A model generated the notes under the pieces. That model ran no database searches, was not told where the DNA came from, and worked only from the letters and a program-made list of their open reading frames with translations. The position numbers and the translations under genes are program-made. Shown here in pieces: positions 13,735 to 30,463 of a stretch of DNA of 44,413 bases. Within the stretch, counting starts at the first letter, position 1. Each line of letters begins with the position of its first letter. The DNA comes from Candidatus Cloacimonadota bacterium (lineage in GTDB: Bacteria > Cloacimonadota > Cloacimonadia > Cloacimonadales > Cloacimonadaceae): NCBI GenBank assembly GCA_020532215.1, contig JAJBBF010000023.1:1-44413 (forward strand), given 5' to 3'.

Positions 13735-14063
13735 GTGTCATTCCGGGGAGGCGTGCGCCAGCACGCGGGGCCCCGGAATCCAGGCCGAGGCACAAAAAGA
13801 TGATCAAAACAGAGGCACAGAGAGACAGAGAGATGATGGGACCGAGGGAAAAGATATATGTGTGTCATTCCGGGGAGGCGTGCGCCAGCACGCGGGGACC
13901 CGGAATCCAGGCCGAGGCACAAAAAGATGATAAAAACAGAGGCACAGAGAGACAGAGAGATAATGGGACCGAGGGAAAAGATATGTGTGTGCCATTCCGG
14001 GGCCCCTACAGCACCCCACGGTCTCGCTGCGCTCATCCGCGAGGACCCCGCCACCCCGGAATG
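13735..14063. repeat. 127-bp tandem repeat, two full copies and one partial
   Basis: Copies start at 13735, 13862 and 13989, exactly 127 bp apart. Each opens with a REP-like palindrome (GTGTCATTCCGGGG, GGCGTGCGCC, then CCCGGAATCCAG) and continues with a low-complexity tract rich in CACAGAG and GACAGAGAG. The first two copies differ at only a few positions. The third keeps the opening but diverges after CCGGGG and closes with CCCCGGAATGAC. The array sits in the 517-bp gap (13677-14193) between the M28 gene and argF, which holds no gene. Short open frames across it are products of the repeat. Confidence 0.9.
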
Positions 14064-14134
14064 ACAATCCAGGGCTTGTCGGTTGAAAGTTCTGCGGTTA
14101 TCCTGTACCTTCACCCACTCGATTAGTAAGAAAG

Positions 14135-20066: not shown

Positions 20067-22583
20067 TTATCTTAGCAGTATCGCCCTGGCCAGTTTGCTT
20101 TCTTTGCCTGATCGCACGCGGATAAGATAGATGCCGGCCGCGACCTTGCGTCCGGTTTCATCGTGCCTATCCCAGACGACGCTGTGCTCGCCCTCCCTGA
20201 TCCCCGAAAACTGGTAGGAGCGCAGTTTCTGGCCGCGCAGATTGAATATTTCCAGGCTGCAGTTGCCGGTTTTGGGCAGGCTGAAGCTGAGAGTGGCATT
20301 GCCAAAGAAGGGATTGGGGCTGATGCTGAGCCCCAGGGCCAGAGGGATGGCCGCGGGGTCGTCTTCGAGTGAACCGGGGATCGTATCTCGCAGATAGGGA
20401 TAGCCGTCGTTGCGCTGGTGCTGGTAGTCGGGGGCCCACACGCTGCCGAAGTTCCAGCCCACGTAGGTGTCCGTTGAATGGGGAAAGGTCATCTGGTCTG
20501 TAGTCCTGCCCGCACCGACGATGCTGGCGGATTGCCCGGAGGTCTGGATGTCCCAGTAGCCCCCGCCGCTGGAGCCGGAACCGTAGGAACTTCCCACCAG
20601 GCCGCCAACCTGGGTGCCGCTGCCGCTCACAGCGCCCGTGCTGTAACTTTTTTCAAGGCTGCCCCATGAGTAATAATAGCCCGTGAGCGCGCCCAGCAAG
20701 CCACCCACTTGGTCTGTTCCGCTCACCGCTCCGCGGGCGTAGCAGTTGTCGATCGATCCGTATGTGACCCCCACCAGGCCGCCCACCTGGGTGGAGCCGG
20801 AAACGGCCGCGTTGCTGCAGCACCCGGAGATCTCGCCATCTTCATAATTCATGCCCACCAGGCCTCCGGCTTCGGTGGTCCCCTGAACGGTGCCGGAGCT
20901 GTGGCAGCGGATGATCAGGCTGTTGTTGTCACCCACCAGGCCACCCACCTTGAACTCTCCGGAAACCTCAGCCTGGGTGTGGCAGGCCGTGATCTCCGTC
21001 TCGTCGGCATCCCCCACCAAACCTCCGGTCGCGGGTGAGGTGCCGCCCACGTGGGTGCCCAGGTTGGAGATCGTTCCCTGGTAATAGCTGCCCAGGATGT
21101 CGCTATATTCCGCCCTGCCGATCAAGCCGCCGGCCTTGTAAACAGTGTTTCCCGGCACGGAAATGTTCACGGTGCTCTGGCAGGAATCCACCACGGCGTG
21201 TTCCGCGTATCCGATCAGGCCTCCCACAGCGGAATCGATGATCAGCATATTGCCGCCGTGGATGGTTCCGCTGGCTTGGCAATTTCTGATTTCCGCATGG
21301 TAGGTGCTCCTCCCGGCCAGGGCGCCGGTCTGCATGCCGCCGGTAATGTTGCAGCCGCTTATCTGCAGATCTCGCACCACAGCGTCGTGCACTATGCCAA
21401 AGAAGCCCACGCCGGTCCTGGCGCTGGAGCTGATGTTCAGATTCGCGATGCTGTGTCCGCCGCCGTCAAAATCACCTTTAAGCAGGGGGATGTAATAGCC
21501 GGGCAAACCGCTGAGGTCGAGATCGGCGGTCAGCCTGTAATGATAGCCGGCATTCTGGCCAAAGGCCATGAGCGGGAAAATGTCCTCTTCGTTCTGGATC
21601 AAGTGGCGTCCGTTTTCCAGCGTGAGAAATTCATCGATGTCCAGATTTCTGTTTGAGGACAGCCATTGGCTGAACAGAACCGCCGGCAACGCGCCCATGG
21701 TTATCTGGTATTCATTGTTTATTGTGTAGTCATCGAGGTCATAGTAGCTATTGGTGATAGTGTACTCCAGATAGTTGCATCCCCCAACCAGAGCTCCCAA
21801 AAAATACCCGTTACCCGTCAGGGAACCGGCACTGTAGCAATTGCTTACCGTTCCCGACAGTGTCCCCACCAGGCCTCCGACGTTCGCGGTCCCGTTTCCG
21901 CTGATCTGGCCTTCCGCCTGACACCAGTCGAGGACAGCTCCGCCTTCCAGCCAACCAACCAGGCCGCCCATGCTGTGGGCGGTAGGATAATATCCAGGCT
22001 GGATCTGCGCCGTACCGATAACCGTGGCGGTGGAGCCGCAATTGTAGATCGTGGTGCCTGGGTAGGCATGTGCGATCAGGCCGCCCTGGATATGTCCGGA
22101 GCCGTTGACAGTTCCGCTTACCTGGCAGTTGCTGATGTAGCTTTCCCGGGCGCTGTAGGCCAGAAGCGCCGCGTAGCCGGCTGAGGCGGTGATCGATCCG
22201 TTTTCGAGCTCCAGATCGGTGACGGTGGCGGAGAGGAGGTTGCCAAACAGGCCGCATTCCCCTGTCTCGTTCAGGTGCAGGTTGGAGATCGTGTGCTGGT
22301 TTCCGTAATAGTGCCCTGTAAAAGGCGTCAGGCCGGATCCGATGGGGGGCCAGCCCTGCCCGTCGAACCAGGTGGAGGTCTCGGCAGCGTCGATGTCTAG
22401 CGTTTGCCGGTAGATAAAACTCCAGCGGGCGGGGTTTTCGGCGATCCAGTAAAGGTTGTTGAGATTGGCGATGCGATAGGGGGAAGCCACCGTGCCCGAG
22501 CCAGCGGGCTGCTGGGCGATCTGGGCCCTTAGAAAACCGGTTAAAATCAGGCTGGCCAAAATAGCGGGTATGATCTTGCGCAT
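20067..22583 (-). CDS. Secreted GLUG-repeat surface protein with C-terminal sorting-type domain
   Basis: The 838-aa product begins at 22583, 7 bp after AGAGGAG, with a signal peptide (MRKIIPAILASLILTGFLRA). Most of the protein consists of GLUG-motif repeats: about ten GGLVG or GGLIG units (for example VGGLVGDNN, AGGLVGMNY, VGGLVGVTYG) spaced by stretches with conserved Cys in N-C-Y/S-G patterns. GLUG repeats are thought to form a beta-helix and occur in adhesins and M6/M26 proteases; no protease motif is visible here. The last 85 residues form the same FlgD-like Ig domain (SPNPFFGNATLSFSLP, IFNLRGQKL, AAGIYLIRV) as in the M28 protein, suggesting the same export or anchoring route. Likely an adhesin or matrix protein; the role is inferred. 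Confidence 0.9.
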   Translation of the reverse strand: MRKIIPAILASLILTGFLRAQIAQQPAGSGTVASPYRIANLNNLYWIAENPARWSFIYRQTLDIDAAETSTWFDGQGWPPIGSGLTPFTGHYYGNQHTISNLHLNETGECGLFGNLLSATVTDLELENGSITASAGYAALLAYSARESYISNCQVSGTVNGSGHIQGGLIAHAYPGTTIYNCGSTATVIGTAQIQPGYYPTAHSMGGLVGWLEGGAVLDWCQAEGQISGNGTANVGGLVGTLSGTVSNCYSAGSLTGNGYFLGALVGGCNYLEYTITNSYYDLDDYTINNEYQITMGALPAVLFSQWLSSNRNLDIDEFLTLENGRHLIQNEEDIFPLMAFGQNAGYHYRLTADLDLSGLPGYYIPLLKGDFDGGGHSIANLNISSSARTGVGFFGIVHDAVVRDLQISGCNITGGMQTGALAGRSTYHAEIRNCQASGTIHGGNMLIIDSAVGGLIGYAEHAVVDSCQSTVNISVPGNTVYKAGGLIGRAEYSDILGSYYQGTISNLGTHVGGTSPATGGLVGDADETEITACHTQAEVSGEFKVGGLVGDNNSLIIRCHSSGTVQGTTEAGGLVGMNYEDGEISGCCSNAAVSGSTQVGGLVGVTYGSIDNCYARGAVSGTDQVGGLLGALTGYYYSWGSLEKSYSTGAVSGSGTQVGGLVGSSYGSGSSGGGYWDIQTSGQSASIVGAGRTTDQMTFPHSTDTYVGWNFGSVWAPDYQHQRNDGYPYLRDTIPGSLEDDPAAIPLALGLSISPNPFFGNATLSFSLPKTGNCSLEIFNLRGQKLRSYQFSGIREGEHSVVWDRHDETGRKVAAGIYLIRVRSGKESKLARAILLR

Positions 22584-22727: not shown

Positions 22728-22761
22728 CCAATATTCCATTTTTCCCTGACCGGCTCCTGCG

Positions 22762-22832
22762 ATCATTACGGGATCAATACGGGATCATTACGGATGAAAT
22801 CCGTATTGATCCCGTATTGATCCCGTAATGAT
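22762..22832. repeat. 71-bp near-perfect palindrome built of 11-bp units
   Basis: Arms 22762-22795 and 22799-22832 are 34 bp each, with one mismatch and a 3-base GAA centre. Each arm is made of three consecutive 11-bp units of the form ATCAWTACGGG (the last unit ends in GGAT). It lies in the gap between the divergent GLUG gene and the acyl-CoA ligase, outside the likely promoters of both. There is no T-run. Confidence 0.93.
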
Positions 22833-22888
22833 AATAGGAGCCAAACAGCTTGGATGCCTAACGTTTTCAACTGAAGAACCAAAAACAC

Positions 22889-23071
22889 GTGTCATCCCGG
22901 GAAGCGTGCGCCAGCACGCTGGGGCCCGGGATCCGGGCCTTCGGGGTAATGCCCTCAAAGGGTTTCGATTCAGACTGCGTCTGGATCGAACCCGCCTTGT
23001 GGGTGATGTTGTTTTGGTTTGACCGCCTGGATTCCGGGGCCCGGGGGTTGAAACCCCCACCCCGGAATGAC
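22889..23071 (+). repeat. Dispersed palindromic element, copy A
   Basis: The element opens with GTGTCATCCCGGG, GCGTGCGCCAGCACGC and CCCGGGATCC, has a central unique-looking part (GGGTTTCGATTCAGACTG, then GATGTTGTTTTGG), and closes with GGATTCCGGGG and CCCCGGAATGAC. The inverted partner is at 30293-30463, with roughly a dozen differences over about 155 comparable bases. Its first about 50 bp also resemble the start of the 127-bp units at 13735. Its terminal inverted repeats (GTCATTCC/GGAATGAC type) and lack of a gene fit a REP/MITE-like non-autonomous element. Confidence 0.85.
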
Positions 23072-23215
23072 AGGTCGGGTCTGGGGGTGGGTGTTTCTGG
23101 ATTCCGGGGCCCCGGGGGTTGGAACCCCCACCCCGGAATGACAGGTCGGGTCTGGGGGTGGGTGTTTCTGGATTCCAGGGTCCCAGGGGGTTGGAACCCC
23201 CACCCTGGAATGATA
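23029..23215 (+). repeat. 70-bp tandem repeat of hairpins, three copies
   Basis: Units start near 23029, 23099 and 23170 (70 and 71 bp apart). Each is a hairpin: GGATTCCGGGGCCC, GGGGGTTG, then CCCCCACCCCGGAATGA, joined by a linker CAGGTCGGGTCTGGGGGTGG. The third copy is slightly diverged and loses its linker. The first unit is also the right end of element copy A. Together with the palindrome and copy A, these fill the 733-bp gap 22584-23316, which contains no gene. Confidence 0.88.
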
Positions 23216-23253
23216 CAGCGGGCAGCTACGGCTATCCCCGCGGATAAAAATTC

Positions 23254-23282: not shown

Positions 23283-23316
23283 AGATTTTTGAAGATTTTT
23301 GGATTTGGAGAAGAGT

Positions 23317-24957
23317 ATGATCACAGAAAAACTGATACCCTACCTGTTGGATTCCATCAAGCAATACTGGGACCTCCTGGCTTTCACGGACTATCCCGGG
23401 CCCGCCATCACTTACGGCGAGGTTGGACGGCAGATCGCCTGGCTGCACTCATTGTATCGGGAATGCGGGCTGAAAAAGGGCTCAAAGATCGCCCTGGCCG
23501 GCAAGAACGGCAGCAACTGGGCCCTGGTTTGGTTCTCCGCGGTCACCTACGGCGCCACTATCGTGCCCATCCTGGCCAACTTTTCGCCGGAGGACACCGC
23601 CCACATCGTGAACCATTCGGAAGCCGGGATCCTCTTCATCGCCAGGGACAAATTCGAAGGCATCGATGAGGAGCAGCTGCGGCGGGTGAAATACATTTTC
23701 CGCTTGGAGGACCTCCAACTGCTGGCCAATAAAGCCGACAAGCGCACGGAACTGGTGCCCGCGCTGAAAGACAACCCCGAACTGCAAAACCTGGGCAAGG
23801 ACCAGCTGGATTTCCCCGATGTCTGCGACAACGAGGACATCGCCTCGATCATCTACACCTCCGGCACCACGGGCTTTTCCAAAGGCGTGATGCTGGCGCA
23901 CCGCTCGCTGCTGGCGAATCTGATCTACGCCCGGGAGAACCTGACCTTCAGCGTGGGAGCCAAAGTTCTCTGCTTCCTGCCTCTGGCCCATTCCTTCGCC
24001 AGCGCTTTCGACCTGCTTTATCCCTTCACCCGCGGCAACCACATCAATTTCCTGGACAAGATCCCGGCGCCGAAGCTGCTGCTGAGCGCGCTGCAGGACC
24101 TGAAGCCGGAAGTGGTGATGGTGGTTCCGCTGCTGATCGAGAAGATCTATAAAAAGCAGCTGCAGCCAGTGATCGAAGAACCCAAGATGAAGGTGCTGAT
24201 GAAGGTTCCGCTGCTGAACAAGGTGGTCTATAAAAAAATCAAAGACAAGCTGATGACGGCCTTTGGCGGCAACATCGTGGAACTGATCGCCGGCGGAGCG
24301 CCGATGAACGCCGATGTGGAGCAGTTCATGATGAAGATCAAATTTCCCTTCACCATCGGCTACGGCATGACGGAATGCGGGCCGCTGATCAGTTACGCCC
24401 GCTGGTTTGACCGCCGCTTCGAATCCAGCGGCAGGATCGTTGATTCGCTGCGCTGCAAGATCGATTCGAGCGACCCGGCGAACATCCCCGGCGAGGTGGT
24501 CCTCACCGGCGACAACCTTTTCTCCGGCTATTACAACAACCCCGAGGCCACCGCCGAGACCCTGCGCGCGGGCTGGCTTTACACCGGCGACATCGGCACC
24601 CTGGACAAGGACGGCTTCATCTACCTGCGCGGCAGAAGCAAAAACATGATCCTGGGCCCCAGCGGCGAAAACATCTATCCCGAGCTGGTGGAACAAAAGG
24701 TGAACAACCTGCCCTATGTGCTGGAATCCGTGGTCCTGGAGCGCGACCGCCAGCTGCACGCCCTGGTCTATCCGGATCTCGACGCCCTCGATCAGGAGAA
24801 AATCCCCGAAGCCAAGATACCCCAGATCATGGAGGAAAACCGCCAGGCGGTGAACAGCACCCTGGCCGATTTCAGCCGCATCGTCAAGTTCCACATCGTG
24901 AACGAAGCTTTCCAGAAAACCCCCACGCAAAAGATCAAACGCTATTTGTACCGCTGA
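23317..24957 (+). CDS. AMP-forming long-chain acyl-CoA ligase family protein
   Basis: The 546-aa enzyme belongs to the ANL adenylating family, which activates a carboxylate (typically a fatty acid) with ATP and ligates it to CoA. Visible motifs: P-loop YTSGTTGFSKGV (180-191), GYGMTE (348-353), YTGDIG and the hinge LRGRSKNMILGPSGENIYP, followed by a short C-terminal domain with a QKTPTQKIKR segment carrying the catalytic Lys near the end. The ATG at 23317 has GGAG 6 bp upstream and is preferred over an in-frame TTG at 23299. The substrate chain length is not readable; fatty acid incorporation into phospholipid is plausible. Confidence 0.9.
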   Translation: MITEKLIPYLLDSIKQYWDLLAFTDYPGPAITYGEVGRQIAWLHSLYRECGLKKGSKIALAGKNGSNWALVWFSAVTYGATIVPILANFSPEDTAHIVNHSEAGILFIARDKFEGIDEEQLRRVKYIFRLEDLQLLANKADKRTELVPALKDNPELQNLGKDQLDFPDVCDNEDIASIIYTSGTTGFSKGVMLAHRSLLANLIYARENLTFSVGAKVLCFLPLAHSFASAFDLLYPFTRGNHINFLDKIPAPKLLLSALQDLKPEVVMVVPLLIEKIYKKQLQPVIEEPKMKVLMKVPLLNKVVYKKIKDKLMTAFGGNIVELIAGGAPMNADVEQFMMKIKFPFTIGYGMTECGPLISYARWFDRRFESSGRIVDSLRCKIDSSDPANIPGEVVLTGDNLFSGYYNNPEATAETLRAGWLYTGDIGTLDKDGFIYLRGRSKNMILGPSGENIYPELVEQKVNNLPYVLESVVLERDRQLHALVYPDLDALDQEKIPEAKIPQIMEENRQAVNSTLADFSRIVKFHIVNEAFQKTPTQKIKRYLYR

Positions 24958-30292: not shown

Positions 30293-30463
30293 GTGTCATT
30301 CCGGGATAGGGGCCCCGGAATCCAGATGGTCAATCCAAAACAACATCACGCACAAGGCGGGTTCAATCCAGACGCAGTCTGAATCGAAACCCTCTGGGGG
30401 CATTACCCCAAAGGCCTGGATCCCGGGTCCCCGCGTGCTGGCGCACGCTTCCCGGGATGACAC
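30293..30463 (-). repeat. Dispersed palindromic element, copy B (inverted relative to copy A)
   Basis: Read on the minus strand it matches copy A at 22889 from its opening GTGTCATCCCGGG through the shared core (GGGTTTCGATTCAGACTG, GATGTTGTTTTGG) to the closing GGATTCCGGGG. The right-hand end is shorter than in copy A (GGGGCCCCTATCCCGG). Confidence 0.88.

Follow-up and report, generated by a model that had tools for sequence, protein, structure and literature searches.

Families of short repeats in bacterial genomes are usually accounted for by a tagged REP sequence together with a linked transposase. ERIC sequences are multi-copy intergenic palindromes of about 100 bp, which are not built from iterated units and whose sequence is common across genera. 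REPINs and BIMEs, i.e. REP doublets with RAYT (PMC3116915, PMC3733652), are short, multi-copy, intergenic, inverted hairpin doublets. They are uniform inside one genome but differ from lineage to lineage and are probably non-autonomous, all of which also applies to the element described here. In Drosophila, the foldback transposons FB and Galileo have internally repetitive terminal inverted repeats, and recombination or conversion between these long inverted repeats has been proposed (PMC3573991). Prokaryotic MITEs and the Rickettsia palindromic elements, many of the latter lying inside open reading frames, are further small, dispersed palindromic or inverted-repeat elements of bacteria (PMC10969869).

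The palindrome analyzed in this work is located at positions 22762-22832 of the window, i.e. of the whole 44,413-nucleotide stretch of DNA, which is part of a Candidatus Cloacimonadota MAG assembly. Unlike a REPIN arm, which is a single REP, the arms of this Cloacimonadota element are arrays of 11-bp direct units. The element differs from REPINs and BIMEs also in that it has no linked RAYT, the local RAYTs having other REPs, in that its solitary monomers in the genome of the window occur at contig ends only, and in that it is concerted at orthologous positions. Furthermore, the family consensus contains no unpaired GTAG/CGTC tag; a GGAG string is present only inside the paired outer stem. With the foldback transposons the element shares inverted repeats made of short tandem direct repeats with a varying number of units, but it is bacterial, about 100 bp long, has a strict 11-bp period and no internal region, and no transposase was found for it. 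It is small, dispersed and palindromic as are MITEs and Rickettsia palindromic elements; unlike for MITEs, however, neither a target-site duplication nor a parental IS with the same ends is demonstrated, and in contrast to many Rickettsia palindromic elements it was never found inside an ORF here and has 11-bp iterated arms. Like ERIC it is an intergenic multi-copy palindrome of about 100 bp, but its arms are iterated and its sequence is replaced by lineage. In the way it works, the element is comparable to a REPIN or to a foldback element in miniature, while the REP tag and a linked RAYT are absent and MITE features are not demonstrated. What is conserved is period and symmetry, not sequence. 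A class of bacterial repeats that is characterized by an 11-bp period and in which the units are interchangeable is not known to us. A literature search, with most subscription journals outside its coverage, found no such class and nothing relevant on Cloacimonadota repeats.

The palindrome has the structure ATCATTACGGG ATCAATACGGG ATCATTACGGAT / GAA / ATCCGTATTGAT CCCGTATTGAT CCCGTAATGAT. As described in the earlier note, three 11-bp units face three inverted ones in arms of 34 bp each, with a three-base centre and a single mismatch, between 22788 and 22806. The inverted similarity reaches outward to 22752-22842 (44 bp, 91%) via GGCTCC...GGAGCC (Table 1). The folding energy amounts to -76.7 kcal/mol as RNA and -45.2 kcal/mol as DNA, with z about -13, and 0 of 200 shuffled sequences folded as well. 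Thus, the palindrome is not due to chance. It lies in a gap of 715 bp between a minus-strand GLUG gene and a plus-strand AMP-binding gene. A second repeat family adjoins it at 22889-23220 and is also present at 13737-14065 and 30295-30463 of the window; this family is rich in GTCATTCCGGG/CCCGGAATGAC, forms tandem copies of 71-72 bp and recurs at many other places in the genome.

Table 1. Features of the palindrome and its surroundings in the window.
Feature	Position	Strand	Remark
GLUG-motif secreted-protein gene	20067-22583	-	one side of the palindrome gap
Probable full element extent	22745-22849		pooled-arm conservation fades past position -17
Outer stem, left, GGCTCC	22752-22757	+	positions -10 to -5 conserved in the family
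Variable tetranucleotide TGCG, outer stem/core junction	22758-22761		family: CATT, CAGC, TGCG, CAGT, others
Left arm, three 11-bp units ATCATTACGGG, ATCAATACGGG, ATCATTACGG(AT)	22762-22795	+	
Loop GAA	22796-22798		family: GAA in 49/55 oriented copies, AAA in 5, TAA in 1
Right arm, three inverted units	22799-22832	-	one mismatch vs left arm
Variable tetranucleotide AATA, right side	22833-22836		
Outer stem, right, GGAGCC	22837-22842	-	
AMP-binding enzyme gene	23299-24957	+	other side of the palindrome gap

The recurrence of the palindrome was assessed in the window's own assembly (G000; 80% complete), with other G numbers denoting related genomes. A search with the 201 bp around the palindrome yielded 80 matches at about 40 places. 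The half-arm pattern occurred 59 times in forward and 57 times in reverse orientation as compared to 0 for the reversed control, and at least 56 complete palindromes were verified. In addition, two copies are cut by contig ends, and these are the only solitary arms present. Over 110 arms, the columns are almost invariant; variation is found mainly at the A/T position in unit 1 and at base three of unit 2, which is A or C. Beyond the core, a variable tetranucleotide is followed by a conserved GGCTCC-like block, after which conservation fades. On either side of the core, the tetranucleotides at -4 to -1 are drawn from a single small set, and in G000 and G009 they pair with each other less than expected from random pairing of copies (z of -3.3 and -3.1, respectively); this reduced pairing is absent in G003 and G012.

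When 50 genomes of the same family were searched with the strict palindrome pattern, 114 matches were obtained in G000, 117 in G003, 95 in G007, 80 in G012 and 74 in G009, while the pattern is almost absent from the remaining genomes. As each element gives about two matches, half of these counts was taken as the copy number, i.e. about 57, 58, 48, 40 and 37 copies, respectively, in these five genomes of the genus. Two of the four carrier species other than that of G000 are independently named Candidatus Cloacimonadota MAGs, JAKQNV and JAGOIS. The shape of the palindrome alone would fit a one-off template-switch product or an assembly artefact, and a lack of recurrence had been named in the earlier note as the outcome that would speak against its reading. 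However, the search for unit arrays proposed there revealed at least 56 complete copies in this genome and further ones in the MAGs of the four other species. A one-off origin is therefore refuted and is given practically no weight, and with the recurrence in the genome and in JAKQNV and JAGOIS an assembly error is not tenable. No match to the element was detected among the phages, plasmids and viral contigs searched.

As judged by simple ORF scoring rather than a full gene finder, 0 of 56 copies in G000 are contained in predicted ORFs. The flanking genes are arranged in tandem in 31 cases, convergently in 12 and divergently in 8, compared to 35, 12 and 10 for other gaps in the same loci. This similarity to the control gaps argues against a terminator-like preference. 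An intrinsic terminator was rejected, as the element has no T-run after its stem and no preference for positions downstream of genes, in agreement with the doubts already voiced in the earlier note. The genes recurrently present beside the elements are mainly members of large host families, orthologues and a few Y1 genes, the latter from loci that had been selected for these genes.

The 11-bp unit consists of a 9-bp core, TCAWTACGG, and a 2-bp linker. Each arm contains three units in G000 and four to five in other genera; in G018 there are four per arm and in G029 four to five. Within G003, one copy has three units facing four and another has three facing twelve. The arm of twelve units spans a contig break between the end of C25 (L271) and the start of C58 (L287), and the assembly breaks inside it. 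With respect to template switching, which the earlier note had suggested as a source of the palindrome, a single event is rejected by the recurrence, but slippage of units does occur, as in the G003 arm of twelve units.

Furthermore, the units differ between species, with ATCATTACGGG ATAAATACGGG ATCAATACGGAT being used in G000 and ATCAATACGGT ATCAATACGGA ATCAATACGGAT in G003. When compared with the G000 consensus, four pair positions are changed in G003 and three in G012, in each case in both arms. In an alignment of 29 sequences, 24 of the 34 pairs, mostly in the cores, never vary and 8 of the 34 change on both sides; 56 cells were doubly changed as compared to 19.4 in shuffled alignments, and 0 of 500 shuffles had as many. 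The 9-bp core is fixed between species, and the 2-bp linkers are altered jointly in the two arms. Thus, the core is constrained in its sequence, the linkers only in their symmetry. The W position does not have to be paired, one pair there being open in 13 of 29 sequences. A putative multi-site protein target, as proposed in the earlier note, fits these 9-bp cores, which hardly vary and recur every 11 bp, with varying linkers. Overall, the interpretation given in that note is partly supported. A transcribed RNA hairpin acting in processing, stability or termination and being cut or bound as double-stranded RNA would also account for covarying linkers and for the very stable fold. An A-form helix has a repeat of 11 bp, which matches the length of the unit. 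We nevertheless regard such a hairpin as very improbable, since there is no T-run and no preference for 3' ends according to the flanking-gene counts given above, the W position need not pair, and no Rfam family reached its gathering score for the element, hairpin matches being found below threshold only.

To compare positions between species, loci of G000 were set against G003, the loci having been picked regardless of the presence of elements in G003. Four loci share an element, and its distance from the upstream stop codon is 21 vs 23, 16 vs 27, 134 vs 135 and 169 vs 169 bp. In G003, no element is present in the stretches that are orthologous to L034, L221, L044, L215 and L209. In 16 pairs of positional orthologues, 3-9 of the 71 bases differ between the species. 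In all 16 pairs this difference exceeds the mean difference of the G000 copy from the other G000 copies, and in nearly all of them it also exceeds the difference of the partner from its own species. Pairwise differences average about 2-3 within species and 4-8 between the closer species. Copies at shared positions are no further from the G000 consensus than the others, with 0.79 as compared to 1.38 mismatches. As orthologues are less alike than copies from the same genome, the family evolves in concert. Thus, in each species some copying process keeps dozens of copies in line with each other, including some whose positions are old.

When taken together, the palindrome is a copy of a multi-copy, non-coding, intergenic element of about 90-105 bp, and we consider it about as probable as its opposite (roughly 0.5) that this element is non-autonomous and is copied by a protein in a REPIN-, MITE- or foldback-like manner. 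This reading builds on the observed recurrence, intergenic placement, fixed core with complementary linkers, variable number of units, concerted evolution and use of other units in the same layout. A protein reading the cores would drive the copying or conversion. Such a putative trans-acting protein, which may act on an extruded hairpin, would recognize one 9-bp core per helical turn of 11 bp in both arms. It would place copies of the element at new intergenic sites or overwrite copies already present, as in REPINs or MITEs. Copying of this kind would spread a master sequence and keep the arms complementary. The unit would drift along with the protein, so that the units would come to differ between lineages. 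Support for the family is strong, whereas we infer the factor and the mechanism. Homogenisation in place could also be due to plain gene conversion without mobility, and, less likely, the shared positions might stem from insertions that hit the same hot spots independently.

The nearly invariant cores at 11-bp spacing, the partial conservation of element positions between species and the occurrence across the family with lineage-specific units would also be expected from a fixed chromosomal platform, i.e. host sites for nucleoid organization, segregation or replication which are under selection and coevolve with a repeat-binding protein without any transposition. However, positions are gained or lost, as seen in the five G003 stretches without an element, and coevolution alone would require about 57 copies to acquire identical paired substitutions, each on its own, which is hard to achieve without a copying process. 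We therefore regard a fixed platform as rather unlikely.

G000 encodes three Y1_Tnp proteins, and two of their genes adjoin a copy of the element. Every member of the genus with many copies also has Y1 genes. These findings would suit an ordinary REP or REPIN mobilised by the RAYT of the genome or by another Y1 (IS200-like) transposase. However, the gene for the 210-aa RAYT-type Y1 transposase on contig C54 (L025:800-2383) sits in a different REP array, with its own CCGGATGAATCCGGTGTTCCG arrays on both sides, and this RAYT is 98% identical in G003, with the same REP arrangement, although the element sequence differs. IS200-like TnpA genes are located among other short palindromes (GTCCC..GGGAC; AGCCCC..GGGGC). 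No single Y1 class is present in all carriers. As the Y1 genes here and in relatives have their own, different flanking repeats, the element was rejected as a REP of these proteins and the link to RAYT was dropped; mobilisation by a Y1 transposase thus appears improbable. Several IS200-like genes with their palindromes (L020, L099, L103, L015, L091, L104, L100) resemble REP/RAYT pairs, though they encode proteins of the short IS200 type.

Signs of mobility were also looked for. Target-site duplication statistics over 139 copies gave a weak CA/TG dinucleotide signal, part of which may be explained by base bias. Within G000, no empty site spanning a junction was found. Sites without the element were seen in G003 and G002, with flanks too diverged for a junction to be defined, and G009, G012, G003 and G002 yielded no clean empty site, as intergenic flanks diverge too far between species for clean junctions to be obtained. 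No autonomous IS with the same terminal repeats was found in the 80% complete G000, and a search by solitary arms, which occur at contig ends only, revealed no transposase-coding relatives of the element in this genome. A cognate protein was not found either, the Y1/RAYT genes examined carrying other repeats.

The same layout is also found with different units. In G009, a palindrome located close to a transposase gene is built from the unit TTAATCAAG, and one in G013 from CTTAGTATAAC. Twelve relatives, most of them without the TCAWTACGG element, were surveyed in stretches no longer than 20 kb, in which 27 of the 34 palindromes with a clear period had a period of 11. This period was found in none of the 12 palindromes from 200 kb of E. 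coli, none of the 14 from shuffled sequence and none of the 15 from 200 kb of other families of the order. Some of the 20-kb samples (G005, G013, G016, G029) had been picked near known arrays or transposases, so that the densities in these genomes are biased; the 240 kb of G002 were not picked in this way. The lineage-specific units include GACTTCCCG in G002, TTAATCAAG and TCATTGCGC in G005, CTTAGTATAAC in G013 and TGTCCCGAAGA in G029, among others. The unit TTAATCAAG gave counts of 33/37 in G001, 34/37 in G005 and 31/30 in G020 with 0 in the control, is also multi-copy in G009 and G004, and is absent from G000, G003, G007 and G012. Thus, the layout is common across this bacterial family, while the sequence of the unit is rewritten from species to species.

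That the layout is kept while the unit changes suggests a DNA-copying or DNA-binding system. The copies being in step within each species, active copying or conversion would be at work, together with a recognition protein that would have changed its specificity several times. As related genomes use at least four different units, this protein should be findable by phylogenetic profiling, and the persistence and homogenisation of short intergenic repeats becomes directly testable in these genomes. Only tentatively do we extend our reading to a family-wide Cloacimonadota foldback class, in which period and symmetry are conserved and the units are replaced and re-homogenised in each lineage by a putative coevolving protein that rewrites copies in place. 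If true, this would be a form of intragenomic drive or conversion undescribed in bacteria.

Individual palindromes of related genomes with an 11-bp period and unrelated units (TTAATCAAG; CTTAGTATAAC) are located at L103:2520-2620, L306:15520-15600 and L072:3080-3170. In G021, whose contig C1 is a single contig of 2,246,820 bp (L325, L326), chimeric 11-bp arrays mix the TTACCCATTGC unit with the CAATACGGACT type.
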